The notes under the pieces: generated by a model
Seen by the model: only the letters and a program-made list of their open reading frames with translations
The model's database searches: none
What the model was told of the DNA's origin: nothing
Made by a program: the position numbers and the translations under genes
Assembly: GCF_000170755.1 (NCBI RefSeq)
Contig: NZ_ABCK01000030.1
Coordinates: forward strand, 1 to 58,982
Length of the DNA stretch: 58,982 bases
Reading direction: 5' to 3'
Origin: Lentisphaera araneosa HTCC2155
Lineage (GTDB): Bacteria > Verrucomicrobiota > Lentisphaeria > Lentisphaerales > Lentisphaeraceae
Part shown: positions 3,479 through 53,709 of the stretch, piece by piece
How the letters are laid out: each line of letters opens with the position of its first letter
How positions within the stretch are numbered: position 1 is the first letter of the stretch

Positions 3479-3510
3479 CCGTAATAAACACTCAGGCTGT
3501 ATTATATAGC
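3479..3510 (+). promoter_or_regulatory. Class I promoter-like element (sulfatase 3543)
   Basis: CCGTAATAAA-N14-TATATAGC, ending 32 nt before the ATG at 3543. The upstream context TTTTTTTCAAAAATAC resembles that in front of the ECF sigma gene at 45949. Confidence 0.6.
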
Positions 3511-11678: not shown

Positions 11679-11710
11679 AGAGTATAAAATACTTAGCTAC
11701 TTTATTACGT
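11679..11710 (-). promoter_or_regulatory. Class I promoter-like element (phosphoesterase)
   Basis: On the minus strand: ACGTAATAAA-N14-TATACTCT, ending 34 nt before the start codon at 11644. Confidence 0.55.
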
Positions 11711-11811: not shown

Positions 11812-11843
11812 GCGTAATAATTCACCTTTAATCACTATTACCT
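11812..11843 (+). promoter_or_regulatory. Class I promoter-like element, distal (DUF1080 gene)
   Basis: GCGTAATAAT-N14-TATTACCT, 91 nt before the start of the DUF1080 gene. A second, weaker match is closer (11874-11905). Confidence 0.45.
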
Positions 11844-11873
11844 TAATAAGAACAAAATTAAGTTAAATTTATT

Positions 11874-11905
11874 GCGTAATCAGCAATTAAATCCAGCTAC
11901 TAAAA
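11874..11905 (+). promoter_or_regulatory. Class I promoter-like element, proximal (DUF1080 gene)
   Basis: GCGTAATCAG-N14-TACTAAAA, ending 29 nt before the ATG at 11935. The spacing to the start fits the other class I elements but the -10 half is poor. Confidence 0.35.
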
Positions 11906-11934
11906 AGAGACTTATAAAAACGAAGGAACCATCT

Positions 11935-12672: not shown

Positions 12673-12704
12673 GCATAATATCTTTCCGAGAACCCTTATT
12701 AGCT
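12673..12704 (+). promoter_or_regulatory. Class I promoter-like element (CxxCH dehydrogenase)
   Basis: GCATAATATC-N14-TATTAGCT, ending 28 nt before the ATG at 12733. Confidence 0.55.
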
Positions 12705-27013: not shown

Positions 27014-27046
27014 ATTTATTCCTGAAACAGTTTTTAAAATCATATA

Positions 27047-27078
27047 AGCCTATAGCGAACTCCGCATAAATATTACGC
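27047..27078 (-). promoter_or_regulatory. Class I promoter-like element (sulfatase 25514-27013)
   Basis: Minus strand: GCGTAATATT-N14-TATAGGCT, ending 33 nt before the ATG at 27013. The spacer contains a TGCGGAGTTCGC near-palindrome. Confidence 0.6.
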
Positions 27079-28952: not shown

Positions 28953-28984
28953 GCATAATATTATCGAGTTTCCGCTTATTATCA
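28953..28984 (+). promoter_or_regulatory. Class I promoter-like element (sulfatase 29015)
   Basis: GCATAATATT-N14-TATTATCA, ending 30 nt before the ATG at 29015. Divergent to the element at 28886. Confidence 0.6.
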
Positions 28985-29014
28985 TATATAAACTTAAAAG
29001 ATACAGGAATGTAT

Positions 29015-30487: not shown

Positions 30488-30537
30488 GCCTTCTTTCATT
30501 CAAATTTAAAAAGTATCAATTAAACCAGGAGACCATT

Positions 30538-32496: not shown

Positions 32497-32528
32497 GCAT
32501 AATAAAGTTTAACACGACGTTATTAACT
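32497..32528 (+). promoter_or_regulatory. Class I promoter-like element (sulfatase 32558)
   Basis: GCATAATAAA-N14-TATTAACT, ending 29 nt before the ATG at 32558. Confidence 0.55.
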
Positions 32529-33946: not shown

Positions 33947-35335
33947 ATGAAAAAATTACTATCGTGTGCCCTTTTTCTGAGCACTCTTTTTCTCCATGCT
34001 CAAGAAAATAAAATGAACGTCTTATTTATTATGTCCGACGACTTAAACGTCGATATTGCTTCCTATGGTCACCCAATAGTAAAAACTCCCAATTTGGATA
34101 AACTGCGCTCAAAAAGCGTTCTTTTTTCACAGGCCTATTCTCAATACCCACTCTGTAACCCCAGTAGGAATTCAATCCTTTCCGGTATGTACCCGGGAAC
34201 AAGTGGCTGCCTGAGCAATGCCGACCAACTGCGCAAGACTGCTCCTGATATCACAACCTTGCCCGAAGCCTTTAAAAAGCAGGGCTACGAAGTGATCTCC
34301 ACCGGTAAAATCTTTCACCACGAAGATCCACAAAGCTGGACAGGGATAACCAACCTAAGAACCGGTAAGCTCCACCCCCAAGGCAAAGATTATAATTTTT
34401 ATCGTCCCGCTTTTGATGAAAGAAAAACGATTGGTGAAGGCCGCAATCTTACTGAAGGTGAATTAGGCTTTATGACCTGGCGCAGTGTTACTGAAAAAGA
34501 AGATATCTTATTTGATTCAAGAACAGCTCGCTGGACAATGCAGCACCTCGAAAAGCTTGCTGAAGATGAAAAACCCTTTTTTCTCGGCGTTGGTTTCAGT
34601 CGTCCCCACGATCCCTTTTTCGCACCCAAACGCTTTTTTGACATGTACCCAATGGAATCTATCAAGCTTCCTGAAACACCGCAAAATGCCTCGAAAGTTC
34701 CGATGATGGCCTACTATGATGTATTTAAGAGAGCTTTTGATAAGATGGATACTCAAAAACGCTTAGAATTCGTACGCTCTTATTACGCTAGCATTTCCTA
34801 TATGGACGAACAACTTGGACTCGTTTTAGATAAACTCGAAGCATTAAATTTAAGCAACAACACTCTAGTCGTTTTCATCAGTGATCACGGTTATCAGGTC
34901 GGCGAAAAAGGCTACTTCAACAAAACGCTCTTATTCGAACGCTCCTGCCGTGCACCGCTCATGATCAGCAACCCAAAACTTAAATCCTCCGTGAACAAAG
35001 TAGATAAGATTGTGGAATTCATTGACGTCCTACCTACCATCACTGAAATCACCAGTGTCCCTACTCCTAAAACTGCCGAGGGACGCAGTTTGATCCCTCT
35101 TATGAAAGGCAAAAAAGTAGAATGGAAAGAAGAAGCTATCTCATACGTAAATGCCGATCGCTCCATCAGAACTGAACGCTACCGTTTGATTAACTGGAGA
35201 GGTCAAAAAGAAGCCCTTTATGATCATCAACGCGATCCAGGTGAACACTTTAACCAAGTGGATAACCCTGAGTACAAAGAAGTGCTAAAAAGACTGAGAA
35301 GTAAACTCAAAGAAATCCCTGAGTTTAAAAAGTAA
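33947..35335 (+). CDS. S1 sulfatase, iduronate-2-sulfatase-like (CNPSR type)
   Basis: 462 aa, the same length as its upstream neighbour and probably an old tandem duplicate. Signal peptide 1-18 (LLSCALFLSTLFLHA). Metal site LFIMSDDLNVDIASYG, formylglycine Cys C70 in YPLCNPSRNSILSGMYPGT, GKIFHHEDP, and ISDHGYQVGEKGYFNKTLLF. Begins directly at the stop of 32558 (0-bp gap), so translational coupling is likely. No Lys tail. A class I element for the next operon begins 3 bp after this stop codon. Confidence 0.94.
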   Translation: MKKLLSCALFLSTLFLHAQENKMNVLFIMSDDLNVDIASYGHPIVKTPNLDKLRSKSVLFSQAYSQYPLCNPSRNSILSGMYPGTSGCLSNADQLRKTAPDITTLPEAFKKQGYEVISTGKIFHHEDPQSWTGITNLRTGKLHPQGKDYNFYRPAFDERKTIGEGRNLTEGELGFMTWRSVTEKEDILFDSRTARWTMQHLEKLAEDEKPFFLGVGFSRPHDPFFAPKRFFDMYPMESIKLPETPQNASKVPMMAYYDVFKRAFDKMDTQKRLEFVRSYYASISYMDEQLGLVLDKLEALNLSNNTLVVFISDHGYQVGEKGYFNKTLLFERSCRAPLMISNPKLKSSVNKVDKIVEFIDVLPTITEITSVPTPKTAEGRSLIPLMKGKKVEWKEEAISYVNADRSIRTERYRLINWRGQKEALYDHQRDPGEHFNQVDNPEYKEVLKRLRSKLKEIPEFKK

Positions 35336-35337
35336 AA

Positions 35338-35369
35338 GCGTAATATTTAAGCGAGCGCGTTTATTTACT
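35338..35369 (+). promoter_or_regulatory. Class I promoter-like element (esterase-sulfatase operon)
   Basis: GCGTAATATT-N14-TATTTACT, ending 36 nt before the ATG at 35406. Confidence 0.6.
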
Positions 35370-35405: not shown

Positions 35406-36290
35406 ATGATCAAAATTTTACCCACTGTTGCATGTTCCCTATTTCTTCTTGGGTCTTTAGTTTGTACGGCTGCAGATACGAAAAAGATCACTCGTAAAGA
35501 TTTGCAGGAACTTATCGACAGCGGCCTGCATGAAGCAGGTCAATACGATTATCTGCCTTACCGGCTGATGAAGCCCATTGATTATGATTCATCAAAATCC
35601 TACCCACTCATTCTCAGCCTACATGGTGCCGGTGGCCGGGGAACTAAGAATAAAAAAAACCTGAAAGACTGGCATGTTTATTTAAGTGAAGAAAATCTCC
35701 GCAGAAAACACCCCTGCTTTGTACTTTCACCTCAGATGAACTCCAACTGGACCTTCAAACACCGCAGAGATTCCAGTAAAAAAGGACCCTTGACTGTAAG
35801 CCTAGAGCTGATAGAAAAACTCAAAAAAGAATACTCGATTGATTCAGATCGTATCTATGTCATTGGACACTCACTTGGCGGTCAGGGCACATGGCTCAGC
35901 ATTTGGAATCGTCCCGATTATTTTGCCGCAGCTATTCCCAGTGCAGGAGCTGGCTTTCCGGAAGGCTGGCACATCAAACTCGACCCAAAATACGACAAGA
36001 TGGATTATTCAAAATTTAAAGATGTTCCCGTATGGGCCTTTCACAGTGACGATGACGCTACCATCCCCGTTGATAAGAGCCGCACCATATTTGATGCCAT
36101 CAAAAAAGTTCAAGGCAACATGAAATACACCGAAGTCAGTAAGGCAGGACACGCTGCTTACAAATATGCCTACAACTATGACGGAGACTCTAACTCAGGC
36201 TACAAAACAGAATTAGCAGGTCCTAAATGCGACACAACTGAAAACGTGTGGGATTGGCTCTTCTCTAAATCACTTAATAATCGAAAATAA
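35406..36290 (+). CDS. Secreted alpha/beta-hydrolase esterase
   Basis: 294 aa. Signal peptide 1-22 (CSLFLLGSLVCTAA). Esterase D/PHB-depolymerase-like: LILSLHGAGGRG (oxyanion loop), nucleophile S156 in GHSLGGQGTW, acid candidate D217 in HSDDDATIP, and H249 in KAGHAAYK. Likely removes acetyl or other acyl groups from a polysaccharide so that the co-encoded sulfatase, 9 bp downstream, can act. It is similar in type to the lipoprotein esterase at 16511, but not anchored. Confidence 0.9.
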   Translation: MIKILPTVACSLFLLGSLVCTAADTKKITRKDLQELIDSGLHEAGQYDYLPYRLMKPIDYDSSKSYPLILSLHGAGGRGTKNKKNLKDWHVYLSEENLRRKHPCFVLSPQMNSNWTFKHRRDSSKKGPLTVSLELIEKLKKEYSIDSDRIYVIGHSLGGQGTWLSIWNRPDYFAAAIPSAGAGFPEGWHIKLDPKYDKMDYSKFKDVPVWAFHSDDDATIPVDKSRTIFDAIKKVQGNMKYTEVSKAGHAAYKYAYNYDGDSNSGYKTELAGPKCDTTENVWDWLFSKSLNNRK

Positions 36291-36299
36291 GGAACCCTC

Positions 36300-37667
36300 A
36301 TGATAAATTCATTTACAAAATTATTCCTGGCTTTACTCTGCGTAAATTTTGTAGCTTTAGCCGACTCCAAGCCCAATATCATCGTCATCCTTTCAGACGA
36401 CCAGGGTTACGCTGACGTAAGTTACAACCCGGAGCATGACGACTACATTAGTACACCTCATACCGATGCCTTGGCTAAATCAGGTGTCATTTTCCATCGC
36501 GGTTACACTTCTGGCTCAGTCTGTTCAACGACTCGCTCAGGTTTAATGACGGGTCGCTACCAACAACGCTATGGAATCTACACCGCCGGTGAAGGCGGAA
36601 CTGGAACTGACTTAAATGCCAAATTCATTCCTAATTACCTTAAAGAGGCGGGCTACAAATCCATGGCTTTCGGTAAATGGCACCTTGGCCATGAAATGAA
36701 ATACCACCCTCTTCACCGTGGTTTCGATGACTTCTACGGCTTTATGGGACGTGGTGCTCACGATTTCTTCCGTTTGGAAAAAGAATACGACGGCAAGTTT
36801 GGAGGGCCAATCTACCGCGGACTAGAGCCCATCGACGACAAAGGCTACCTCACGACACGTATTACTGAAGAAACAGTTAAGTTCATCGAAGAAAATAAGG
36901 ACAAGCCCTTTTTTGCCTATGTAGCTTACAATGCCGTACACACACCTGCCCAAGCTCCTGCAGAAGATATCAAAGCTGTTTCAGGCGATGAAACCCGAGA
37001 CATTTTAGTCGCCATGCTTAAACACTTAGACTTGGGCGTTGGTGAAATTGTTAAAACACTTAAAAAGCACGATATCTACGAAAACACCATTATCATCTAC
37101 CTCTCCGACAATGGTGGGGCTAAATCTATGGTTGCCAATAATAAGCCCTTAAGAGGAGTGAAACACGACATCTACGATGGTGGTATTCGCGTTCCTTTCC
37201 TCATGTCTTGGCCCGCACAAATCAAAGCTGGACAAGACACCCAATCTCCCGTGATTTCATTGGATATTCTCCCTACTCTTTTAGATGCTGCTGGACTCCC
37301 CGCTTTATCTGATATTGATGGCGAAAGTATGCTTCCTGTTATTCGCGGTGATAAAGACAATCTCGATCGCCCCTTCTTCTGGAATCACGGTGACGGGCAA
37401 ACTGGCATTCAACTCAACAATTGGAAACTCGTTTTCAATAAGGGTGTAACTGAACTTTATAAGATTTCTGACGATATTGGCGAATCAAAAAATTTAGCTG
37501 CTTCACACCCTGAAAAAGTTCAGGCACTACAAAAGATTTATGATAAATGGCTAAGCCAAATGGCCACTCCCATGTCAAAAAACACCATCGTTAAATGGGA
37601 TCCAAATAAAACGAAAAAAGCTAAGAAAGGCAAAAAAGATAAAACTAAAAAGAACTCAAAAAAATAG
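36300..37667 (+). CDS. S1 sulfatase-like protein with CSTTR motif
   Basis: 455 aa. Signal peptide 1-21 (LFLALLCVNFVALA). Metal site IVILSDDQGYADV. The maturation site reads C75-S-T-T-R79 (codons TGT TCA ACG ACT CGC), so the proline of CxPxR is replaced by Thr. GKWHLGHEMKYHPLHRGFDDF and LSDNGGAKSMVANNKPLRG are intact, so the fold and metal sites look functional. Conversion of C75 to formylglycine by standard maturases is uncertain. Lys tail (KKAKKGKKDKTKKNSKK). Second gene of the esterase operon. A terminator follows the gene. Confidence 0.92.
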   Translation: MINSFTKLFLALLCVNFVALADSKPNIIVILSDDQGYADVSYNPEHDDYISTPHTDALAKSGVIFHRGYTSGSVCSTTRSGLMTGRYQQRYGIYTAGEGGTGTDLNAKFIPNYLKEAGYKSMAFGKWHLGHEMKYHPLHRGFDDFYGFMGRGAHDFFRLEKEYDGKFGGPIYRGLEPIDDKGYLTTRITEETVKFIEENKDKPFFAYVAYNAVHTPAQAPAEDIKAVSGDETRDILVAMLKHLDLGVGEIVKTLKKHDIYENTIIIYLSDNGGAKSMVANNKPLRGVKHDIYDGGIRVPFLMSWPAQIKAGQDTQSPVISLDILPTLLDAAGLPALSDIDGESMLPVIRGDKDNLDRPFFWNHGDGQTGIQLNNWKLVFNKGVTELYKISDDIGESKNLAASHPEKVQALQKIYDKWLSQMATPMSKNTIVKWDPNKTKKAKKGKKDKTKKNSKK

Positions 37668-37971: not shown

Positions 37972-38003
37972 GCGTAATATTTTTCGATCCTCTAATATAT
38001 ACC
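37972..38003 (+). promoter_or_regulatory. Class I promoter-like element (pseudopilin 38038)
   Basis: GCGTAATATT-N14-TATATACC, ending 34 nt before the ATG. The -10 half overlaps a TACC-ATTATT-GGTA dyad (37999-38012). Near-identical layout at 42207 and 43070. Confidence 0.75.
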
Positions 38004-38037
38004 ATTATTGGTACACTACATTAAACAGGATCAGGCA

Positions 38038-38745
38038 ATGGTAAAATATACAAAAAAGCAATTTAGTTTAGTTGAACTTCTCGTCGTCATCGCAATAATC
38101 GCGATACTTGTTTCATTATTAATCCCAATATTGAGCAACGCACGACTATCTGCCAGAACTGCCGTGTCGGTAAGCAATTTAAATCAAATCTACAAGGGTG
38201 CTATGATCTACGCCTCCGACAACGATAAAAAACTGTGTAAAAGTCATGAAAACCAACGTTCAGGCGGCGGTGAAGTTGACTGGCCAAGAATGATTTATGA
38301 AAATATGTTTGGACCTTTTTCAGATAATCGCGCCACTGCCAAAGAAGAAATGGCAAACGACAAAACATATAACGATATGATGTTCTGCCCTGTATTAAAA
38401 AGTGAACGTACTCTAACCGATCACCACGTTGATGGGCGCTCCAGCTACAGTATGAACAATTACTTTTCAATAGACAGAAACAACTTTAGATTAACCTACG
38501 TAGGCTCTATGGGAAAAACCGAACCCTACATCATGCCTGGAACATCGTCAAATAATAAAAATGAACTCCAATCCGATGCCAATCTCGAAGGATCCCGCTA
38601 CGAGCTAAGTCATGGTTATCCAGCATACTCCTATACGAATCAAAAAACCTTTGGGCTCTTCATTGATGGCAGTATTCAATTCATGAGTATTTCACAGGGC
38701 GGATTAATTGATGATTTAATGGGTGATAGAAGAGACTTTGAATAG
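38038..38745 (+). CDS. Pseudopilin-like protein (prepilin N-terminal domain), class I paralogue
   Basis: Start 38038 (235 aa), with an AGGA upstream. The upstream TTG at 38008 lies in the promoter/leader. Type IV prepilin leader KKQ, then FSLVELLVVIAIIAIL with Glu at +5; the -1 residue is Gln, not Gly. The C-terminal domain shares GGGEVDWPRMIYENMFG, ATAKEEM, MFCPVLKS, YSMNNYF and EPYIMPGTSSN with the proteins at 42272 and 43132. It ends with LFIDGSIQFMS, the position of the H-X-DG motif of Lentisphaera/Planctomycete pseudopilins. Inferred role: secreted, membrane-anchored pseudopilus subunit. It is 88 bp upstream of a sulfatase with no promoter of its own. Confidence 0.87.
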   Translation: MVKYTKKQFSLVELLVVIAIIAILVSLLIPILSNARLSARTAVSVSNLNQIYKGAMIYASDNDKKLCKSHENQRSGGGEVDWPRMIYENMFGPFSDNRATAKEEMANDKTYNDMMFCPVLKSERTLTDHHVDGRSSYSMNNYFSIDRNNFRLTYVGSMGKTEPYIMPGTSSNNKNELQSDANLEGSRYELSHGYPAYSYTNQKTFGLFIDGSIQFMSISQGGLIDDLMGDRRDFE

Positions 38746-38833: not shown

Positions 38834-40381
38834 ATGTACAAAACACTATTGCTAGCTTTATTTTTACTCCCAACAGCAATTTTTTCCCAGAGCGAACAAC
38901 CCAATATAATTTTTTTCCTTGTCGATGATTACGACAAACAGGACTGTAGTGAATATACGGGACCACGGAATCTGACACCGAGCCTGAAGCGCCTCGCAAA
39001 AAATGGTATTACCTTTGATAAAATGCACATGACCTCAACCGTTTGTACTGCATCCCGTTACACATGTCTAACTGGTCGCTACGCTGGCTTCTCATACTCA
39101 GAAAAGTATTTAAATGCCTACCCCGAAGGCTATCAGGGTGGACCTGCCTTTGATTTAGGTCTGGAAGACGACAACATGAATGTCGCACAGGTTTTATCCG
39201 ATAATGGCTATGTCACCGGACTCGTTGGTAAATACCATGTTGCTTCATCTTACAATAGTATAGATGAGCCTGAAAAAAACATCCCTTACAGCGAAGAAGT
39301 CAACGATCAAAAATTCTTTGCAGAAAAGCAAACTCGCGACCTCATTAAGGGTAGTGGCTTCGACTGGGCTAAAAACGTTTACCTAGGAAACCTCAAAGCA
39401 CCTTTCAATCATCACAATCCAGAGTGGACCATTAGCGCTGCACTGGAGTTTGTCGAAGACAACAAAGACAAGCCCTTTTTCTTATACTACGGCACCACAC
39501 TCGCTCACGGCCCCTCTAAAAATTGGGACGCCTCTATAGACGAACCTTTAACTACTGGAGAAGGCATCATTGACTCCCCTCTTGGAGTCATGGATCGCGA
39601 TTCCCTACGCGAACGTGTTCTCGAAATTGGCTTAGAGCCAGAAGAGAAAAGTGGTATTTTATGGATGGATGACTCCCTTGGCCTTCTTATGGATCGCCTT
39701 GAAGAGCTTGGCATTGCCGATAACACAATCATTTGTTTTGTTGCCGACCACGGCAGTGAAGGCAAAGCATCTTTACACAAAAGTGGAACTGAAGTTCCCT
39801 GTATCATGAGCTGGCCAGCAGGAATGAAAGCTGGCAAGAGATGCGATGCCCTACTTCAGAATACTGATTTCGTTGCTACCTGGTTTGATGTTGCAGGCAT
39901 TGAGAAACCCGAAGAATATCAAATGCACGGTATAAGCTTCAAAAAACTATTTACTCGACCTCGGAAATCCACACGTGATCACGTCTACTGCGAAGTTGGC
40001 CCAGCCCGTGCTATAAAAACAAAAGAGTGGAATTACATCACCTTGCGTTACACGAGAGAAGACCTAGAGGCTGTTGAAGAATCAGATAGGTACGCCAAAA
40101 GACTCCTTGGTTTATCTGGCGGCATTGGCCGTAGCGCAAAAAAACCCGAAGCTATTGCTTATGATCAGCTCTACAACCTTGAACAGGATGAACTCGAAGA
40201 AAGCAATCTAGCCGAAGACCCTGCTCAGGAAGCTATTATTATGGACATGCAAAGTAAATTGCTCAATGCGCTACAACTATTCCCAAACCGTCCTTACGGT
40301 GAATTCATCCCCGGCCCTAATACTTTAGCTAAAGGCGAGTTCGACATTATCCTTGATGCGATTAAAAAGCATAATAAATAA
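38834..40381 (+). CDS. S1 sulfatase with CTASR motif
   Basis: 515 aa. Signal peptide 1-18 (LLLALFLLPTAIFS). Metal site IIFFLVDDYDKQDC. The maturation site is C71-T-A-S-R (TGT ACT GCA TCC CGT), a CxAxR variant; the close paralogue at 30538 has CTPSR. GKYHVASSYNS, VADHGSEGKASLHKSGTE and RPYGEFIPGPNTL are intact. CxAxR sites are known substrates of radical-SAM anSME maturases. The C-terminal Lys tail of the paralogue is absent here (ends IKKHNK). Probably co-transcribed with the pseudopilin at 38038. Confidence 0.93.
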   Translation: MYKTLLLALFLLPTAIFSQSEQPNIIFFLVDDYDKQDCSEYTGPRNLTPSLKRLAKNGITFDKMHMTSTVCTASRYTCLTGRYAGFSYSEKYLNAYPEGYQGGPAFDLGLEDDNMNVAQVLSDNGYVTGLVGKYHVASSYNSIDEPEKNIPYSEEVNDQKFFAEKQTRDLIKGSGFDWAKNVYLGNLKAPFNHHNPEWTISAALEFVEDNKDKPFFLYYGTTLAHGPSKNWDASIDEPLTTGEGIIDSPLGVMDRDSLRERVLEIGLEPEEKSGILWMDDSLGLLMDRLEELGIADNTIICFVADHGSEGKASLHKSGTEVPCIMSWPAGMKAGKRCDALLQNTDFVATWFDVAGIEKPEEYQMHGISFKKLFTRPRKSTRDHVYCEVGPARAIKTKEWNYITLRYTREDLEAVEESDRYAKRLLGLSGGIGRSAKKPEAIAYDQLYNLEQDELEESNLAEDPAQEAIIMDMQSKLLNALQLFPNRPYGEFIPGPNTLAKGEFDIILDAIKKHNK

Positions 40382-40718: not shown

Positions 40719-41867
40719 TTAGTTTTGTTTACTTTGTGCAATTGCATCATCAAGTTCTTCAACTGAGGCATAGCGCAGGAAAAAGAACTGTATCATCTCC
40801 ATTTGTCTTAAAGTTGGTTTCTTGCCAAACAAGTCAAACAGCATGATGGCGGCGATAAGCGCCGAATACATTTGTATTGCGACACCATTGGAAGATTCAG
40901 CGAGTAGTTTGCGACAGCCTAAAATGGATTTAAGCCATTTAAAAAACACTTCAATTTGCCAGCGCTGACGATAAATCGTACTGATAATAGCGGCATTCAG
41001 TTTTTCAGGAGCTTCTGAGGTTACCAAAAGGATTTCTTTATCATTAAATGCGCCCGTTCTTACCAGTCTTATTGGCTTGAGTTCGCGATCAGTGTCCCCA
41101 AGGTAGACTAACTGGTCAGAGATTACCCCTTCCTTGCGATCCTTTTCGGTGATTTCATACTCTTTGATCACAGTAAGTTTGGGTTTATTGCGAATGCGAA
41201 TAGTAAAAAGTGCTCCACGTTGTTGAAGCTCTTCAAAATAACTGTAATCCAAGCCGTAATAACGGTCGCAAACATACATGACGCCTGGTTGAACCATCTT
41301 GAGAAGAGCTTTCCGTTCACAGCTATTCCCGGCAGTTATAACAGCATCAACAGCACTTTGCTTTAGTAGAGAAAAACCCAAATGAAGCTTTGCTGCTTTG
41401 TGGTTTTCATCGAGCCATTCAGCCCAGAGCACCCTCGTTAAGGTTTGAAATAAAGATCCATCTACTGCAACTAAATCCTTGACAGCAGCTAAGAGACTTC
41501 GATCCTGGATTTTATTAATGGGAATTTTTGAGGATAACTTTTGAACTAAATGTTGTAAAGAAGTCGCATCAAAAACATGTTGTGCCTCGGAAAAGCTTCC
41601 TAGACTTATTTTTCCAAGGGTCACATGTTCTTGAACTTTTTTTAACTCACTGGCAGCACAAAGCCCTCGCATAGATTTCAACACAGGGTTAAACAAAGTA
41701 AAGAGAATAGCTGAGGCATAATCGAGGTAATGCAATTTGCGTCGAGGGTCATCTTCGGAGGGGTGACGCGGATGGTGCTCAAGCTCTTTTGTCAGTTTCT
41801 CTCTGAACTCTTGAACCAAGCACCAGCGCTTAAGGTTTCGTTCTTCTGTTTTGGTCATCTTCTTCAT
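40719..41867 (-). CDS. IS4 family transposase (DDE)
   Basis: 382 aa, intact. DDE residues by motif: Asp in LVAVDGSLF, Asp in YVCDRYYGLDYSYF, and Glu in the Y-(2)-R-(3)-E-(6)-K signature (YRQRWQIEVFFKWLK), diagnostic of the IS4 group. N-terminal part includes ILFTLFNPVLKSMRGLCAAS. The ATG at 41867 is preferred because the frame begins MKKMTKTEERNLKRW; a second Met lies three codons on. The gene fills most of the 1618-bp element. The reading frame shows no damage, so the element may still transpose. Confidence 0.95.
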   Translation of the reverse strand: MKKMTKTEERNLKRWCLVQEFREKLTKELEHHPRHPSEDDPRRKLHYLDYASAILFTLFNPVLKSMRGLCAASELKKVQEHVTLGKISLGSFSEAQHVFDATSLQHLVQKLSSKIPINKIQDRSLLAAVKDLVAVDGSLFQTLTRVLWAEWLDENHKAAKLHLGFSLLKQSAVDAVITAGNSCERKALLKMVQPGVMYVCDRYYGLDYSYFEELQQRGALFTIRIRNKPKLTVIKEYEITEKDRKEGVISDQLVYLGDTDRELKPIRLVRTGAFNDKEILLVTSEAPEKLNAAIISTIYRQRWQIEVFFKWLKSILGCRKLLAESSNGVAIQMYSALIAAIMLFDLFGKKPTLRQMEMIQFFFLRYASVEELDDAIAQSKQN

Positions 41868-42206: not shown

Positions 42207-42238
42207 GCGTAATATTTTTGCATTCTCCTTTATATACC
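42207..42238 (+). promoter_or_regulatory. Class I promoter-like element (pseudopilin 42272)
   Basis: GCGTAATATT-N14-TATATACC, ending 33 nt before the ATG, overlapping a TACC-N7-GGTA dyad. The IS4 element is inserted 28 bp upstream of it. Confidence 0.75.
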
Positions 42239-42271: not shown

Positions 42272-42976
42272 ATGAAAAAATATTGTTTAAAGCAATTCAC
42301 TTTGATTGAATTACTCGTCGTAATCGCAATTATTGGAATCTTAGCTTCCATGCTACTGCCCGTCTTAGGCAAAGCAAGGAAAACTTCTCAAGCAGCCTTA
42401 TCTATCAATAATTTAAAACAAATCTCTATATCTGCAATGATTTATGCTGATGATAACAATAGCGTATTACCTTATGCCACAGGCAATGTACACCCAAAAG
42501 GTGGAGGTGGCGCCGACTGGCCCAGAACAATCTATGAGCACATCTTTGGAATGTTTTCATTAGACAACGACACCGCAAAAGAAGAAATGGACAATGACTC
42601 GAAATACAATGGCATGCTATATTGCCCGGTATTACTTGGTGAACGGGATGCTATCAATAACAGACATGGCGGTCGCTCCGCCTACAGCATGAATGTATAT
42701 TTTGAAAAACCCAATAATGATTACAACCTAAATGCCCTTTCAGGAAAAATTGAACCTTATATCATGCCCGGAACACCATCAAACAGTCAAAGTGCGGCTC
42801 ATGCAGACTCAAAACTCGACAACTCAAGATTCGAAGAAAACGACAATGGCTTCCCAGCTTATTCTTATAATGACAAAGCTCTAGCTTTATTCATTGGTGG
42901 CCACGTTGAAACAATGTCCGCTGGACATGGCGGGTCAATTGACGCAATAGTGGAAGAAGATAGCGATTTCCAATAA
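42272..42976 (+). CDS. Pseudopilin-like protein, class I paralogue
   Basis: 234 aa. Prepilin leader MKKYCLKQ, then [20 protein letters not shown] with Glu at +5 and Gln at -1. The body is homologous to 38038 and especially 43132: GGGGADWPRTIYEHIFGMFS, DNDTAKEEMDND, LYCPVLLGERD, YSMNVYF, KIEPYIMPGT, and ALFIGGHVETMS near the end in place of the H-X-DG motif. The two genes 42272 and 43132 with their promoters are a tandem duplication. AAGGA lies about 14 nt before the ATG. Confidence 0.87.
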   Translation: MKKYCLKQFTLIELLVVIAIIGILASMLLPVLGKARKTSQAALSINNLKQISISAMIYADDNNSVLPYATGNVHPKGGGGADWPRTIYEHIFGMFSLDNDTAKEEMDNDSKYNGMLYCPVLLGERDAINNRHGGRSAYSMNVYFEKPNNDYNLNALSGKIEPYIMPGTPSNSQSAAHADSKLDNSRFEENDNGFPAYSYNDKALALFIGGHVETMSAGHGGSIDAIVEEDSDFQ

Positions 42977-43069: not shown

Positions 43070-43101
43070 GCGTAATATTGTGAATCCTCCAAATATATAC
43101 C
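43070..43101 (+). promoter_or_regulatory. Class I promoter-like element (pseudopilin 43132)
   Basis: GCGTAATATT-N14-TATATACC, ending 30 nt before the ATG. It overlaps the perfect dyad TATACC-ATAAAA-GGTATA (43096-43113). Confidence 0.75.
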
Positions 43102-43131: not shown

Positions 43132-43830
43132 ATGGCAAAACCTGACAAAAAACAATTCACTTTAATCGAAGTACTCGTCGTAGTCGCAATCATCGGTATC
43201 CTTGCTTCCCTACTGCTCCCAGTATTAGGCAAAGCAAGAAAAACTTCACAGACAACATTGTCTATTAACAATTTAAAGCAGATTCATCTAGCTACAATGA
43301 TTTACGTAGATAACAATAATGACATAATTTTTAGAGCCGATGATAATTTTCATCCAAGAAATAACGGCAACGACACCTACTGGGCAAGAATGGCGTATGA
43401 AAGTTCATTTGGAATGTTTTCATTAGACAATGACACCGCAAAAGAAGAAATGGCCAACTCCACTTACAGTAAAATGATGTTTTGCCCCGTTTTACTTGCT
43501 GAACGAGATTCTATTGAGCATAATGGAAGTGGTCTTTCTACCTACAGTATTAATAGGTATTTTGGTAAAGATAGTAATAGCTTCACCTTAAACTCACTTT
43601 CAGGAAAAATTGAGCCTTTTATCATGCCAGGAACATCTCCAAATAAGGATGCTGAATCCAAAACAAAGCTAAAGAAAACCGAATATGATCCTACTAGCAG
43701 TAGCCATGCAGCTTATGCATATAAAGACAAATCACTTGCCCTATACATGGGAGGACACGTTGAATTTATGACTATTGGACAAGGTGCATCTATGAACGAT
43801 CTAGTAAATGATCAAGATGATTTTCAATAA
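43132..43830 (+). CDS. Pseudopilin-like protein, class I paralogue
   Basis: 232 aa. Leader MAKPDKKQ then [20 protein letters not shown] (Glu +5, Gln -1). Shares SFGMFSLDNDTAKEEM, MFCPVLLAERDSIE, SLSGKIEPFIMPGTSPN and LYMGGHVEFMT with 42272 and 38038. GAGAAGG precedes the ATG. The next gene, a sulfatase at 44008, follows 177 bp later without a convincing promoter. This repeats the pseudopilin-then-sulfatase order seen at 38038-40381. Confidence 0.87.
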   Translation: MAKPDKKQFTLIEVLVVVAIIGILASLLLPVLGKARKTSQTTLSINNLKQIHLATMIYVDNNNDIIFRADDNFHPRNNGNDTYWARMAYESSFGMFSLDNDTAKEEMANSTYSKMMFCPVLLAERDSIEHNGSGLSTYSINRYFGKDSNSFTLNSLSGKIEPFIMPGTSPNKDAESKTKLKKTEYDPTSSSHAAYAYKDKSLALYMGGHVEFMTIGQGASMNDLVNDQDDFQ

Positions 43831-44007
43831 CTAAGTACTGTTGGAATTCAAAAGGCCTATTCTTATAAACGATTGCCTAAGGTAAAAGTCAAAAAAAATT
43901 CTAAATTACAAAAAAGCGATTAAGATTTAGAGAATAACTTAATAAATAGAGACAATAGAATATTTAAAATACCACTTTTGCCTAAAAACATAAACAGTCC
44001 TTATTCC

Positions 44008-45570
44008 ATGAAAGTTATATTATTTTTTTACGTACTTATCATTTCCATTATTTGTCACGCACAAAAGCCAAACGTCATTTTTATTGTTACAGATGATCAG
44101 CTTTATAAGACTCTCGCCTGCTATGGTGGCAATGCTCTTACTCCCAATATCGACAGCCTCGCGGACAATGGTATTCGATTTACTAATGCCAATACGGCAA
44201 GCACCGTTTGTTCACCGGCTCGATACGCTATTTTAACTGGCCGCCACCCGGCGCATTGCAATGATAAACACTTCCTCAAACGCATGCCTAAAAACAAAGC
44301 TATGCGTATAGAGAATTTTGTCTCTCTGGAAAACGATAAACTCAATATTGCCGGAGAACTGCAAAAACACGGTTATAAAACCGGCTTTGTCGGCAAGTCG
44401 CACATCTCAGAACATTTCAGTGCGGGCGGAACTAAACTTTGGGAAAAGCATGGCCTAAAAGTATATGGTCAAAAAGATGATCCTAAAGACCCTGAGGTTA
44501 ACGCCAAAATGCGCCACAATCACGAGGTCTTATGCAAAATGATGATGAAGCACGGTTTTGATTATGTCGATGCTTATTACCTCGCCAATACTCGTGAGTT
44601 ATGGAATGATGCCCTAAATGTCCACAATGTCGAATGGACGGCAAAGGCCGCGGCAGACTTTATTGATCAAAACAAAGACCAGCCCTTCTTCCTCTATTAT
44701 TCCACAACAGCTCATCACGGCCCCGACCCGGATATCATTCAGGGTAAAAAGTTCCCTTATTCACTGGATGCTGACATACGCATGACCAGTGCAGGGTTTT
44801 TCCCTGAGGCTTTTGATAATATGGAAGGCAGACAAGAAACGAAAAAAAGAGTTCTAAAAGCCGGCTACCCGCTCAGAACTGCGGCCTATACTTGGCTAGA
44901 TAATAGTATTGCTGTCATCCTCAATAAACTCCGTGAACATAAAATCGAGGAGAACACCATCATCGTTTACATGAGTGATCACGGCTTCGAAAAGTACCAA
45001 AAAGCAACAGTGTTTGAAGGGGGCTTAAAAATCCCCATGATCATTCAGTGGAAAAATAAAATCACCAAAAAAAGTATTAGCCCACAAATGATTCAAACTC
45101 TAGACTTGGCTCCCACCATTTTTGAAGCCTGTGGAATTACGCCCAGCAAGGAACTCAAACTTGAAGGAAAAAGCCTCATGCCAATTTTTAATGGCAATAC
45201 AGAAGAAATCCACGACTTTATCTATGGTGAAATTGGCTATGCGCGAACCGTCAAAACACAGAAGTGGAAATACATTGCCGTTCGCTACCCCGAACAAGTT
45301 CATAAACAAATTGCTAAAGGCGGCCAATTCCAATCCTACCGTGGCGATATTTTAGATGTGCCCTATCTCGTGAAGAATAATCACCTCGGCTATTACTCTT
45401 CGGCTCAAAACAAAAATTACTTTCTCAAAGATCAACTTTATCGTATCGATAGAGATCCAGAAGAATCTAATAATCTTTTTCAAAAAAATCCCGAAGTTGC
45501 AGAAGAGATGAAAAAAAAGCTCTCCAAACAACTGAAAGAATTTGAGCGCCCTTTTGGTGAATTAAATTAA
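44008..45570 (+). CDS. S1 sulfatase (CSPAR type)
   Basis: Start at 44008 (520 aa) because the signal peptide begins there (VILFFYVLIISIICHA); the TTG at 43978 adds ten residues. No strong Shine-Dalgarno is visible at either. Metal site VIFIVTDDQLYKTLACYG, formylglycine Cys C68 in STVCSPARYAILTGRHP, GKSHISEHF, and MSDHGFEKYQKATVFEGG. Ends in ERPFGELN, without the Lys tail. Related to 27208, 30538 and 38834. Lies between the pseudopilin pair and the ECF sigma module. Confidence 0.93.
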   Translation: MKVILFFYVLIISIICHAQKPNVIFIVTDDQLYKTLACYGGNALTPNIDSLADNGIRFTNANTASTVCSPARYAILTGRHPAHCNDKHFLKRMPKNKAMRIENFVSLENDKLNIAGELQKHGYKTGFVGKSHISEHFSAGGTKLWEKHGLKVYGQKDDPKDPEVNAKMRHNHEVLCKMMMKHGFDYVDAYYLANTRELWNDALNVHNVEWTAKAAADFIDQNKDQPFFLYYSTTAHHGPDPDIIQGKKFPYSLDADIRMTSAGFFPEAFDNMEGRQETKKRVLKAGYPLRTAAYTWLDNSIAVILNKLREHKIEENTIIVYMSDHGFEKYQKATVFEGGLKIPMIIQWKNKITKKSISPQMIQTLDLAPTIFEACGITPSKELKLEGKSLMPIFNGNTEEIHDFIYGEIGYARTVKTQKWKYIAVRYPEQVHKQIAKGGQFQSYRGDILDVPYLVKNNHLGYYSSAQNKNYFLKDQLYRIDRDPEESNNLFQKNPEVAEEMKKKLSKQLKEFERPFGELN

Positions 45571-45948
45571 TCTATCCAATAAAAGACCAATCCTTTTCCA
45601 AATTAGATTAAATAAACTGTTACCTGAATCAGTGAGCTGGCTTTAGAATAATCTCTTAGGGATTTTATTTTTCAGAACTTTGCAACTTTTTGCAGGAATA
45701 CCCGTAGGTCTTTTGAAAAAAGTTGTAAGTCAATGAAGGTAAAAGACCAAGATGATTAACTTAATGTAGTTCACGAATTCAGGTTTAATTAAAAAAAGTA
45801 TTTTTTTTTCATAAAATACCGTAATACATCCCCTATCCAGCATATTGTGCTTACATAGAGAAGTTTTAACTGTCGCTTTACGTTCTAGAGTTTTGATTTT
45901 TACTCAAACGCTAAGATCGTATAATACGACAATCATGAAGGATTTATT
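45571..45948. other. 378-bp non-coding region upstream of ECF sigma gene
   Basis: No gene. It contains the class I element at 45819-45850 and a 98-nt leader before the sigma gene. No clear terminator was found after the sulfatase at 45570. Confidence 0.6.
45819..45850 (+). promoter_or_regulatory. Class I promoter-like element (ECF sigma gene)
   Basis: CCGTAATACA-N14-TATTGTGC, 98 nt before the ATG at 45949. Preceded by TTTTTTTTTCATAAAATAC, similar to the sequence before the element at 3479. Suggests the sigma factor controls its own gene. Confidence 0.55.
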
Positions 45949-46470
45949 ATGGATATTGATCAAACAGAAGAATTCATCGAATTGATGACATCCTTTCAGG
46001 GTAGACTATACGCTTTTATTTTAAGTCTTACTGGCGATCCAAACGGCGCCAATGACATACTTCAAGAAACCAATATAATTCTTTGGAAAAAATCTGGCGA
46101 ATTCGAAATGGGCAGTAACTTCAAGGCCTGGTCTTTTCGGATTGCCAATTTCCAAGTTATGGCTCATCGTCAGAGAAAAATGCGTGATCGCCTCGTTTTT
46201 GATGACGATATGATTGAGGAAATCATCGCCGAGTCAACAGAAGCTGATGAACTCTATAACATCAAACAGGGGAAAATTGATAGCTGCATGAGCCAACTAC
46301 CTGATCGTCAACGCGACCTCATAAAAATGCGTTATACCATTGGCAAAAGCGTTAACCAAATGGCCGAAGATCTTAAAAGCACAGCAAACTCCATTGCTCA
46401 AGCACTTTTTCGAGCTAGAAACAATTTAACTCAATGTGTGAAAACTTTGAAAGGTCAGCCGTATGAATAA
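45949..46470 (+). CDS. ECF-type sigma-70 factor (Rhodopirellula/Verrucomicrobium family)
   Basis: 173 aa. Region 2: LTGDPNGANDILQETNIILW with the following FKAWSFRIANFQVMAHRQRK. Region 4: MSQLPDRQRDLIKMRYTIGK and the helix-turn-helix SVNQMAEDLKSTANSIAQAL. It matches the small PVC-specific ECF group that usually precedes a FecR/LamG gene. Recognises alternative promoters, most likely the class I elements, one of which lies upstream of this gene. The 3' end overlaps the anti-sigma-like gene by 8 bp (46463-46470), which indicates co-translation. No N-terminal extension or extra domain. Confidence 0.92.
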   Translation: MDIDQTEEFIELMTSFQGRLYAFILSLTGDPNGANDILQETNIILWKKSGEFEMGSNFKAWSFRIANFQVMAHRQRKMRDRLVFDDDMIEEIIAESTEADELYNIKQGKIDSCMSQLPDRQRDLIKMRYTIGKSVNQMAEDLKSTANSIAQALFRARNNLTQCVKTLKGQPYE

Positions 46471-48328
46471 GGAGGAATTGCAAAAGCTTATCAATCAGCT
46501 GCTCGAACAATCAATTTCAGATGAAGATTTCACCCTTCTTAAGAAAGAATTAAAGAGCTCGAAAGAATCACGCCTACACTACCTAGATCTGTGCCAATCT
46601 CACAGCATCCTCGCTGAAAAGTATAATGCTTTAATCTTTGAACGACCTCCCGCTAAAACTGTTCAAAGGAAAGTGCAGGAAGAAAGTCATGACTCTATGA
46701 ATGAGGATGAATTGCAAAAGCTTATCAACCAACTTCTCGAGCAATCCATTTCTGATGAAGATTTCAATATACTCAAGAAAGAATTAAAGAATTCGAAGGC
46801 ATCTCGACAGCACTACCTCGAGCTCTGCCAAACACATAGCGTCCTCTCTGAAAAGTATAATGCTTTGATATTTGAACGCCCTGCAGTTCATAATAAACGA
46901 AACGAAAAGCAAGAAGAGAATCATAAAGTCCGTATCATTTCTTTTGCCACTATGATCACTTCTTTAGCTGCCCTCTTTATTGCTGTCTTTATTATTGGCA
47001 ACAAACAACAGTCCCTAAGTGTTCAGCCTGAACTTGTCAGTGAAACTCCTTTTAGAGGAGAAGTCATTGCCAAGGTTAACAAAGCCATTGCTACCGAATT
47101 TGAATATGGTGGCCTCGATGGCCAAACCATTAAACCCGGATCTTGGTTACCTACTGGCTCATATAATTTAAAAAGAGGTATATTAGAAATTTCCTACAAC
47201 AATGGTGTGGCTGCTATAATTGAAGCCCCTACTCGTTTCACTGTTGAATCCGACATGCTTATTAATTGCCAATCTGGGCGACTTTCCGCGAATGTTCCTG
47301 AAAGTGGTAAAGGCTTCACTGTAGAAACTCCGTGCGCTTCAATCATTGATCTCGGAACTGAATTTTCTGTCATTGTAGAGGAAGATGAATATATTGAAGC
47401 TCATGTTTACAAAGGACAAGTACGTGTAGAATGGACTAATCAAGGCGATGTCTCAGACAAATTACTTGATGCTGGGAATGCCCTTCGAATTATTTATCAA
47501 CAAAGTGATAACAGTAAATTTGTTGAAACCATTGCAGCTGGTATTGACCTCAAGCGAAATTTCTTTATTAGAAACCTCAATGAACCTGAATCTGAATACA
47601 GTAAAAATATCCTTGCACTTAACCCTGTTCTTTACTTCCCTATGGATGTAACCGAAGATGGCAACATTTTTAAAGACTGGTCAAATTATAAGAATGATGG
47701 CACGGCAAACATCCGTAAAAATCAATCAACCATTTTAGCTCGTGGCAAAAGTGGTAACGCACTAAGATTGGCCGGTGTTAACCATAAATCATTTATTCAC
47801 GTCAGCAATTATCCAAAAGCTAGATTTAACGAAATTTCCGTTACCGCATGGGTCAATGCTCATAGCCGCCCACAGTGGGCCACCATTCTTAAAAATTGGG
47901 ATGCATTTAATTACGGTCAATTTCACTTTGGTTTAAACCAATTAGGACATCTGGACGTGGAAATTCAGGACCTTGATGGAGAACGTCATCACATCACTGA
48001 AGACATACCCATACCGACAGGTTCATGGCATCATGTTGCTTTTGTCCACGATGGGACTCATGTCACCCTCTATCGAAACGGCAAAAAATTAACTAAAACA
48101 CGTATCAACGGCTTGAGAGTCAACCCAAACATAAATGGGCTTGGTATTGGTACAAAATTATCTGAAGTGGATGGTCAGGCAGACAAAGGAAATCCGGGCC
48201 ACTGGAACGGACGCTTAGATGAAATAGCCATTTTTAACCATGCGCTCACTATAGATCAGGTAAAATCACTCAATAGATCAGGAAGGTTACTTAGTAAAAT
48301 CCAACAAGAACAGGATAGCCAACCATAA
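46463..48328 (+). CDS. FecR/LamG membrane protein with duplicated N-terminal anti-sigma domain
   Basis: 621 aa. Residues 1-78 and 79-156 are tandem near-copies (both contain ELQKLINQLLEQSISDEDF, KKELK, SRxHYL and EKYNALIFERP); period 78 aa. One transmembrane helix about 158-179 (SFATMITSLAALFIAVFIIG). FecR-like domain about 195-345 (GVAAIIEAPTRFTVES, TPCASIIDLGTEFSVIVEE, VYKGQVRV). LamG/concanavalin-like domain about 385-610 (ISVTAWVNAHSRPQWATILK, SWHHVAFVHDGTHVTLYRNG, LDEIAIFNHALT). The layout suggests a membrane anti-sigma factor whose outer LamG part binds a ligand, perhaps a polysaccharide, and controls the sigma factor at 45949. The second copy begins with its own ATG (46697). Confidence 0.9.
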   Translation: MNKEELQKLINQLLEQSISDEDFTLLKKELKSSKESRLHYLDLCQSHSILAEKYNALIFERPPAKTVQRKVQEESHDSMNEDELQKLINQLLEQSISDEDFNILKKELKNSKASRQHYLELCQTHSVLSEKYNALIFERPAVHNKRNEKQEENHKVRIISFATMITSLAALFIAVFIIGNKQQSLSVQPELVSETPFRGEVIAKVNKAIATEFEYGGLDGQTIKPGSWLPTGSYNLKRGILEISYNNGVAAIIEAPTRFTVESDMLINCQSGRLSANVPESGKGFTVETPCASIIDLGTEFSVIVEEDEYIEAHVYKGQVRVEWTNQGDVSDKLLDAGNALRIIYQQSDNSKFVETIAAGIDLKRNFFIRNLNEPESEYSKNILALNPVLYFPMDVTEDGNIFKDWSNYKNDGTANIRKNQSTILARGKSGNALRLAGVNHKSFIHVSNYPKARFNEISVTAWVNAHSRPQWATILKNWDAFNYGQFHFGLNQLGHLDVEIQDLDGERHHITEDIPIPTGSWHHVAFVHDGTHVTLYRNGKKLTKTRINGLRVNPNINGLGIGTKLSEVDGQADKGNPGHWNGRLDEIAIFNHALTIDQVKSLNRSGRLLSKIQQEQDSQP

Positions 48329-50940: not shown

Positions 50941-52982
50941 GGTCTTATTTCAAGATTATTTTCTTTTTGTAGGATTTTTAAGAGTTCGGGATCAGTCATT
51001 TTTTGACTAATAATAAGCTTTTCTGTAACACTATTAGTCAGCATCCTATTATCTTTTTTTAATGGCATTTCAGTAAGATCAAGGCTTTTTAGTTTCAAAG
51101 CATCTAAACTCGCCATATTAAAACGTTTTGATTTTTTAAGAATTAAATGTTCTGGTTTTAAGGTCGATATTAAAGACACTTGGCGATCGAATTGACTGAT
51201 ATACACACTGCAACGAACGAAGTCACCGGAGATGGTTAAGGTCTTCGTTTCGAAATCAAATTCAAATTGCTCTATTTCACTCGTACGATTTATTTCTTTA
51301 AAGACCATTTTAACTAACTCTAGATGTTCTAGGTCATTTGCTCTGACTTCACGATCGTACAGCATCATGCGGACCTGTTGTTGAAGGAAGTTTCCTCGTA
51401 GACTTTTTATGAGCTTTCTAATGACTGAAAGGGGGGCTGGCTCTTGCCCACTTTTGTAGTCCTCTATAGATTTTAGGGAACTAAAAAGGTTCATATTACT
51501 TTCTGCACCACGACCTTTTTTCAACTCGTTCAAGGCTAAATCAAACTCCTGCCTTACGAAGTGCACATCGCCCTTGAACTCGTAAAGTATAATGGCTGAA
51601 TCATTTGATTGCTTAATACGTTCGAGAGAACGCATAATTTCGTCTAAAGTCTCTTTGGGAGAACTTAAAAAATTTCTATGGTAATACTCTTTGAGTTTCG
51701 CTAATACAATAGATGGATCGGTCGACAAGGTAAGGTCAGCTAAGTCTTTTTCTTCTTTATATTTTTGAAAATTCTCCTCGGCTTTTTTCTTTTCTTGTTC
51801 AGCAACTAAGCGAAGGCTATGCTCTTGCTGCCGTGCTTTTTCTAGTTTAACGATAAATGCATTGGTAAAAACAACGATCACTAAGACAGCTAGCCCCGCA
51901 ATGCGACTCGCATTACGGTTCCTTTTATAAAACAAAGAAAACTCTTTTATAAAACCCGCATTTTCTGCGCTGGTCGCAAAGCCAAATAAATACTTCCTCA
52001 CGTCTTCAGTGAGTTCTGCCACCGTTTGATAGCGCTCATATTTATCTAATGCCATGGCTTTCATCACAACTGCATTCAAACTCTGAGCGATCGATCTGTC
52101 GGGGCTACGTTCAATAGGAGGCACGAGCATACCCTCTTTTGTTTTACGCAAAATTTCAATTACATCTGCAGCATCAATGGGTGCTTTTAAGGTGAGAATA
52201 CTATAGAGTACTGCGCCGAGAGCATAAATATCTGATCGGTAGCCCCTTTTAGATTTGTCTTCTAAAAGCTCTGGAGCAATGAAACCAGGTGTACCGCGTA
52301 CTTTTCCAACAAGGGTTTCTCCCCTGAGAAAATCCATACTCAAAAGCTCTAGGGTATCATTTGTTTTATCACCTAATTGACGAGCTAAACCCCAATCACA
52401 AAGCAAAACCTCACCATGATCGCCCACCTGAACATTCTCTGGCTTTATATCCAAATGCAAGACACTTTGCGAATGACTATAGGAAACGGCATCACAAATT
52501 TTAATAAAAATATTTAGCAGTGATTCTCTCGTGTAAGTTTTTGAGTACGCTTCATCTCCTTGCTGTAGCTTATTGAGAATTTCATGGAGTGAATCACCCA
52601 ATTTGAGATCCATGGTAAAATAAGGAGAACCATCGCCTTGGTAATCAATGTCATGCACTTTAATAATATTGGGATGGTGTAAAGCCGCAGTAAGGCGTGC
52701 CTCCGCTAAAAAGGGACCATAGGATTCCGAGCCCAAACTCTCTTTAATAGTTGCCATCGCCACATAGCGGCTTGTCTTTTGATCATAAGCACGAGAAATG
52801 ATTTTCATCCCCCCAGAGGCAATCTCTTTGACTTCGGTATAGCGTTTCGAAATATCAGAAAGCTCTTTGTAGAGTTGAGTACTCTGAACATCGCGCTCAT
52901 CTTCTTCCATATCGTAAAAATCAGTTGCCCGATAATCCAGGTTTTTCGGAATCGCGATAAACTGATCCGATTTTTTGTTCAT
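50937..52982 (-). CDS. Membrane Ser/Thr protein kinase (Hanks type)
   Basis: 681 aa. Cytoplasmic kinase domain about 50-335: Gly-rich loop [14 protein letters not shown] (degenerate), Lys K80 in VAMATIKES, catalytic loop HLDIKPEN with D178 (HLD instead of HRD), metal site DWG with D196, [12 protein letters not shown], and [14 protein letters not shown]. Transmembrane helix 361-379 ([19 protein letters not shown]). A coiled-coil stretch (382-425) and a 250-residue region without a recognised domain follow, ending in leucine-rich-like sequence ([18 protein letters not shown]). Overlaps the sigma gene by 4 bp, so it is co-transcribed and probably transmits a signal to or with that sigma factor. 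Confidence 0.92.
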
Positions 52983-53569
52983 TGGTGATTTTCCAAAAAC
53001 ATTCTTAGTTGACGGATTTCACTTTGGAAACGGGCTTTAACTCGTGATCGCAAAACGTAGACTGAGTTCTCTGACATATCGAGTTCTTCGGCAATGGCAG
53101 CAGCATTCTTGCCTTCTAAGGTTAAATAAAAAACCTTGAGCGCATTACCATCAAAATAAGACTTTACTTTTTCTACTGCCAAAGAAGTAACATAGGCCTT
53201 CCACTCATCTTCAATCATCTTATCGACTTCACTCTCTTCTGAGAGATTGAGGTGATTATCTGGCAGTTCATCCGTCTGAGTTTTCTTAGTCTTTCTAAAA
53301 AATCGATAAACCTCATGTCGAATAACGACGCTGAGCCAGCCTCGAAAATTCGAGTTTTCTCGAGTCGAATCAAACTTGCTGATATCTCTCCAAAGCTTAA
53401 CTAATAGATCTTGCTTGAGGTCGTCAACATGGCTATCATTCACTCCCATTTTAACAAAAACCATGCTGATGAAATTCTTGTAGTAATAAACAAATTCTTC
53501 AAATGCTTCATGATCGTCGGGATTTGATGCTCGTAAGAGCAAAGATTCTCTCGTGTTCCAATTATCCAT
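52979..53569 (-). CDS. ECF-like sigma-70 factor linked to Ser/Thr kinase
   Basis: Start 53569 (196 aa) chosen because AGGAAAC precedes it; the ATG at 53614 adds 15 residues and has no Shine-Dalgarno. Region 2: EFVYYYKNFISMVFVKMG, DDLKQDLLVKLW, FRGWLSVVIRHEVYRFFRK. Region 4: ALKVFYLTLEGKNAAAIAEE then LDMSENSVYVLRSRVKARF as helix-turn-helix. It belongs to the ECF-like sigma factors that sit beside protein kinases in PVC bacteria. It is divergent from the pseudopilin at 53771, and class II elements precede that gene and the two pseudopilins beyond the kinase. Confidence 0.9.
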   Translation of the reverse strand: MDNWNTRESLLLRASNPDDHEAFEEFVYYYKNFISMVFVKMGVNDSHVDDLKQDLLVKLWRDISKFDSTRENSNFRGWLSVVIRHEVYRFFRKTKKTQTDELPDNHLNLSEESEVDKMIEDEWKAYVTSLAVEKVKSYFDGNALKVFYLTLEGKNAAAIAEELDMSENSVYVLRSRVKARFQSEIRQLRMFLENHQ

Positions 53570-53709
53570 TAGTTTCCTATTATTTATGTCACCATAAGGG
53601 ACAAGTTTATTCATGCTTTAATGATCTATTAAATCATCACTAATTTCAAGACTATACTAAGCAGAATGAGTGAATTTTAAACAGATAGCTTAATTATTTT
53701 CTACTTTCC

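Follow-up and report, generated by a model that had tools for sequence, protein, structure and literature searches.

Which sigma factor reads the promoter-like element that recurs before the genes of a sulfatase locus in Lentisphaera araneosa HTCC2155, and does the ECF sigma gene that carries the same element in front of it control itself together with them? In this group, genomes carry about 90 genes with sigma-70 region 2 and well over a hundred sulfatases, the regulation of which is almost wholly obscure. A sigma gene bearing the promoter of its own regulon would permit a direct assignment from sequence to regulon and, being self-labelled, would offer a route to sulfatases that act together on one glycan. 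We analyzed contig NZ_ABCK01000030.1, positions 1 to 58,982 (GCF_000170755.1), a 59-kb stretch referred to here as the window. Genome-wide tests were pattern searches of the 6.02-Mb genome, and a test for dyads covered about 15 sampled loci; the genomes compared were those of L. marina IMCC11369 and G001, both of the genus Lentisphaera, and of G004 and G005, both of one other genus.

Results

The sigma gene (45949..46470, forward strand) encodes a protein of 173 aa with Sigma70_r2 (PF04542, aa 12-77) and Sigma70_r4_2 (PF08281, aa 109-159) domains. Sigma2 and sigma4 are thus the only regions present, joined by a short linker as in ECF sigma factors, and the closest chains of known structure belong to RNA polymerase sigma factors, including several of the ECF type. 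On the same strand, the last 8 bp of the sigma ORF are shared with a partner ORF (46463-48328). Orthologues and paralogues keep this arrangement, which places a putative anti-sigma gene in what would be the same operon. The ORFs and Pfam matches bear out the initial annotation in its account of the sigma gene and of a partner that has FecR and LamG domains. The string that this annotation placed upstream of the sigma gene, CCGTAATACA-N14-TATTGTGC, is present exactly at 45819..45850 (forward strand), 98 nt before the ATG, and is unique in the window at up to 3 mismatches (0.03 expected in shuffles). Its boxes would be a putative -35, CGTAATA at 45820-45826, and, after N16, a putative -10, TATTGTGC at 45843-45850; searches of the 98-nt leader detected neither an Rfam RNA nor a strong sigma-70 promoter. 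A dispersed repeat of about 165 bp occupies 45622-45788, directly upstream of the putative sigma promoter; it has roughly eight or nine more genomic copies (72-94% identity) and L. marina lacks it at the corresponding position.

The sites proposed to share a common element with the sigma gene, at 3479 and 37972, indeed do so: all three contain the core CGTAATA-N16-TAT (CGTAATAAACACTCAGGCTGTATTATATAGC at 3480 and CGTAATATTTTTCGATCCTCTAATATATACC at 37973), which we refer to as class I. The further proposal, that a T-rich and then A-rich flank links the sites at 45819 and 3479, held in part. Such flanks are present at both, but in L. marina the flank is kept at the sigma site and not at the orthologous sulfatase site, so the likeness was rejected as a signature and this part of the argument is weak.

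Nine class I elements lie in the window. On the forward strand, the element at 3480..3510 precedes a sulfatase gene (3543-5096) followed by PSCyt2/PSD1 and DUF1501 genes to 8233, and is conserved in L. marina; that at 11813..11843 precedes a 3-keto-disaccharide hydrolase gene (11872-12606), and that at 35339..35369 an esterase gene (35406-36290) and a sulfatase gene (36300-37667). On the reverse strand, 11679..11709 stands before a metallophosphoesterase gene (10265-11644) that the L. marina locus lacks, and 27047..27077 before a sulfatase gene (25514-27043) in an operon with sulfatases down to 22393, a site kept in L. marina despite a changed gene order. Three further forward-strand elements precede pseudopilin genes, two of which are then followed by sulfatases: 37973..38003 before a pseudopilin-like gene (38008-38745, so called from a motif in its sequence, with no Pfam match) and a sulfatase (38834-40381); 42208..42238 before 42272-42976; and 43071..43101 before 43132-43830 and then a sulfatase (43978-45570). 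With the sigma gene's own, all nine lie on the correct strand 4-99 nt upstream of an ORF. At the two sites 4-5 nt away, the ORF as called probably begins too early; with translation starting further downstream, most sites would be about 28-41 nt from the start codon. The sigma gene, with its 98-nt leader, is the exception to this spacing. Other features of the locus include an Acido-Lenti-1 RNA at 1369-1415 (Rfam RF01687, 50.6 bits), an AbiEi/AbiEii type IV toxin-antitoxin pair at 1455-2887, and transposase genes (IS110-family, DDE) that interrupt it at 8495-9574 and 40719-41867; the toxin-antitoxin pair and the transposases are absent from the L. marina locus.

Three more sites, all on the forward strand, have a variant first box: CATAATA-N15-TTATTAGCT at 12674..12704, before a gene for a ThuA/DUF7133/cytochrome c protein (12733-16056); CATAATA-N15-TTATTATCA at 28954..28984, before sulfatases (29009-32175); and CATAATA-N15-TTATTAACT at 32498..32528, before sulfatases (32558-35335). 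The same sigma factor may read the variant, as a weaker version of the element, or the variant may be a separate class. Were the latter true, CGTAATA and CATAATA would mark two promoter classes with two readers, and the 45949 product would read only the first; in keeping with this, CATAATA is retained in both species, pairs with second boxes of the TTATTA type, and as CATAATA-N15-TTATTA has all three of its genome-wide matches in the window (the L. marina genome has 5, of which 3 are in the locus). However, the variant amounts to a one-base change in the putative -35 at the same spacer and position, and the locus showed no second sigma gene that the two species share, so we regard two readers as rather unlikely.

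The class I pattern has 18 matches in the genome, 9 of which fall in the window, about 1% of the total length and the only place where they cluster; the rate elsewhere predicts 0.09 copies there (Poisson P ~1e-15). With TATNNNNC as the second box, all 5 genomic matches are in the window. Outside the locus, a match at C34:251 before a pseudopilin gene was rejected as a member, its TAT box running into the start codon. An isolated CGTAATA-N16-TATTGACT at C25:72284 (L098), about 97 nt before a gene for 527 aa, fits well and is possibly a distant regulon member. The class I dyad also emerged as the top dyad of the window in an unsupervised search, albeit a crude one, of 15 ECF loci and 645 upstream regions. 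When dyads were scored from a sigma gene's own upstream region, 45949 reached 10.8 and the 28 other sigma genes tested at most 5.3 (next, C22:49769, 5.3); 98% of non-sigma genes scored below about 7.4, and nearly all genes above that value are in this window.

Comparison with relatives points in the same direction. The L. marina sigma orthologue is 96% identical, and the syntenic 56 kb around it holds 7 of the 14 genomic matches (P ~3e-12), whereas G001, which lacks the orthologue and has the sister type (59%) instead, has 16 matches that are scattered. When a matrix was built from the window alone (threshold, at least 12 bits), it found sites before 12 of the 55 genes of the L. marina locus versus 2 of 194 genes in control loci, and these two were the orthologous sigma gene of G004 and a site before the L. 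marina sister sigma. Orthologous sites of L. araneosa and L. marina are 98% identical in the -35 box, 83% in the -10 box, 47% in the spacer and 53-60% in the flanks, figures that are biased upwards by the choice of sites by motif. Species-specific genes carry the element as well (the phosphoesterase gene at 10265 in L. araneosa; a GH38 alpha-mannosidase gene and a sulfatase-like gene in L. marina), suggesting that the elements reflect selection on shared regulation and are not just flanks passed down by descent. The element stands upstream of the sigma gene in four genomes, L. araneosa, L. marina, G005 (sigma 68% identical; CGTAATA-N16-TAT) and G004 (65%; CGTAATG). In G004 and G005 we found the sigma gene's own element and no element cluster; the regulon is thus seen in two species only, and self-control looks older than the regulon.

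A sister sigma factor is encoded at C8:177786 (56% identity), the third gene after CGTAACG-N15-TATATACG, a promoter-like sequence conserved in three species. The region-4 recognition helices of the two types differ along with the boxes, STANSIAQALFRARNNL for the CGTAAT type versus (S/T/N)AN(S/T)IRQ(T/V)LFRARTN(L/I) for the CGTAAC type, a correlation drawn from few sequences; such matched changes would add new sigma/promoter pairs to the ECF specificity code.

These observations bear on the central proposal of the initial annotation, that the 45949 product is the class I reader, and four lines support it: no other sigma-70 region-2 gene among the roughly 90 of the genome has the exact element directly in front; the element cluster is present in two Lentisphaera species with the orthologous sigma gene and locus and absent from the congener without them; the element is also conserved in front of sigma orthologues from another genus; and the sister sigma has a sister promoter that differs mainly by CGTAAT to CGTAAC. 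We infer from them that the 45949 factor recognizes the class I boxes as promoters and that it is autoregulated. The number of sigma genes in the genome would also leave room for a different ECF factor as reader, with 45949 just another regulon member, and the window itself offers a candidate, a second ECF sigma gene at 52979-53614 with a Ser/Thr kinase partner. That gene, however, lacks the element, and the L. marina locus, where elements are present, contains no counterpart of it; in addition, the cluster follows the 45949 orthologue across genomes; a different reader is therefore improbable.

A conventional transcription factor, whether activator or repressor, could also have its binding site at boxes of such fixed spacing and strong conservation, in which case they would not be a sigma promoter. 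The boxes, however, form neither inverted nor direct repeats, and they always face the gene, mostly at about 28-41 nt from the start codon, as a promoter with a short leader would sit; in addition, the only other DNA-binding regulator of the locus that Pfam recognized is the AbiEi antitoxin, so we consider such a site highly improbable. Chance resemblance in A/T-rich upstream DNA can be set aside as having a negligible probability, for although the pattern is itself A/T-rich and its genome total matches that of the reversed-pattern control (18 versus 19), half of the matches are concentrated in 1% of the genome, each properly placed before a gene, and the clustering is repeated in L. marina.

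The partner gene (46463..48328, forward strand) encodes an anti-sigma-like membrane protein of 621 aa with a FecR domain at aa 240-321 (PF04773, 27.7 bits versus a cut-off of 24) and a LamG_3 domain (Pfam Laminin_G_3) at aa 454-600. Both domains lie C-terminal of a single hydrophobic segment at about aa 157-180, and the position of the FecR domain beyond a single membrane segment is that of FecR-type anti-sigma proteins. The N-terminal part, predicted to be cytoplasmic and putatively the anti-sigma portion, contains a predicted helical domain in two tandem copies (aa 1-58, 46463..46636; aa 79-136, 46697..46870; both forward strand); the duplication (46463-46870) is also found in L. marina, while G004, G005 and the sister and paralogous proteins have a single copy. 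Pfam matched no anti-sigma domain in this protein. A class I anti-sigma domain is expected to be a small helical bundle (PMC7406223), and the copies resemble one in a structure model of low confidence (mean pLDDT 58.7), which places such bundles at aa 3-57 and 81-136. A sequence search of solved structures gave a single match, an S-layer-domain protein that aligns with the C-terminal part. From its domain architecture, the protein may sense an external glycan.

Among other loci in the dyad search, the FecR-paired sigma gene of C22 (49769-50299) has its own CGGCAGGT-N14-AATTA (GGCAGGT-N14-AATTA) upstream, shared with three other genes in C22:21086-50358, one of them a pseudopilin gene followed by sulfatases. 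This code has 5 exact matches genome-wide versus 0 for the reversed control, and in G001 a 67-kb span contains all 7 matches, of which one lies shortly before the G001 sigma gene. At C1:230500-244049, TGTCTAAA-N16-CGTCT precedes at least 4 genes, including those for a sulfatase and pseudopilins; no sigma gene was matched to it. A code common to all FecR-type sigma loci was looked for and not seen, with only C30 and C22 clear in the dyad search and C1 partly so; at most FecR-type sigma loci, this crude search detected no self-labelled code.

Discussion

We conclude that the 45949 factor is very probably a locus-specific, self-activating ECF/anti-sigma switch of a sulfated-glycan locus, a conclusion drawn from sequence comparison. 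Under such a scheme, the sigma factor would be kept at the membrane by the co-encoded FecR/LamG protein, its putative anti-sigma factor, until an external cue, probably the glycan degraded by the locus or one of its breakdown products, frees it to direct RNA polymerase to CGTAATA-N16-TAT promoters. The promoter of this type before the sigma factor's own operon would close a positive feedback loop; the remainder would start operons for sulfatases, an esterase, a 3-keto-disaccharide hydrolase and pseudopilins within about 45 kb, giving a regulon of about 9-13 promoters in the best reading.

One could further envision that each ECF sigma factor with a FecR- or LamG-bearing partner forms, with a private promoter code and neighbouring targets, a self-labelled unit in which pseudopilins take the place of SusC/SusD. 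The 45949 gene (CGTAATA-N16-TAT), C22:49769 (GGCAGGT-N14-AATTA) and the C8 sister operon (CGTAACG-N15-TATATACG) are examples that would fit; we advance this generalization tentatively, as one that falls somewhat short of being probable.

The kind of system is already known, because autoregulation is widespread among ECFs: a review puts it at about 55% of the factors that have predicted regulons (PMC8103513). In the literature searched we found no paper on ECF regulation of sulfatases in Lentisphaerae, and the promoter code, the local regulon and its pseudopilin content appear to be undescribed there. With sigma2 and sigma4 only, an overlapping partner gene and its own element upstream, 45949 resembles other ECF (group IV) sigma-70 factors; in contrast to known autoregulated ECFs, its regulon appears confined to one sulfatase locus. 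The boxes also depart from the AAC of the -35 and the CGT of the -10 that served as an older ECF promoter criterion, no longer defining (PMC8103513): the putative -35, CGTAATA, is without AAC and the -10 is of the TAT type, although the box of the sister sigma, CGTAACG, does contain AAC.

As in FecI/FecR, a membrane protein with a FecR domain is encoded directly after the ECF sigma gene, but here LamG is fused to it, and no TonB-dependent outer membrane receptor, which the Fec arrangement includes, was found among the Pfam-scanned genes of the window. The locus likewise recalls the polysaccharide utilisation loci of Bacteroidetes, for which 26 ECF/anti-sigma systems have been reported in B. 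thetaiotaomicron (PMC3878776), in that a glycan-degrading cluster has an ECF/anti-sigma pair of its own; it differs in belonging to another phylum and in having pseudopilin genes share the promoter instead of SusC/SusD, a pair not found among the Pfam-scanned window genes and one that marks loci of the Bacteroidetes type. A third parallel is with clostridial SigI/RsgI, paralogous autoregulated pairs that have their own promoter specificities, serve polysaccharide-degrading enzymes and carry an extracellular sensing module on the anti-sigma factor (PMC6056542). The system described here departs from them in its ECF-type sigma factor (by Pfam), in a FecR/LamG partner in which Pfam found no RsgI domain, and in targets that adjoin the sigma gene, and it is like them in its paralogous sigma/anti-sigma pairs, each with what would be its own promoter specificity, and in its polysaccharide-degrading targets.
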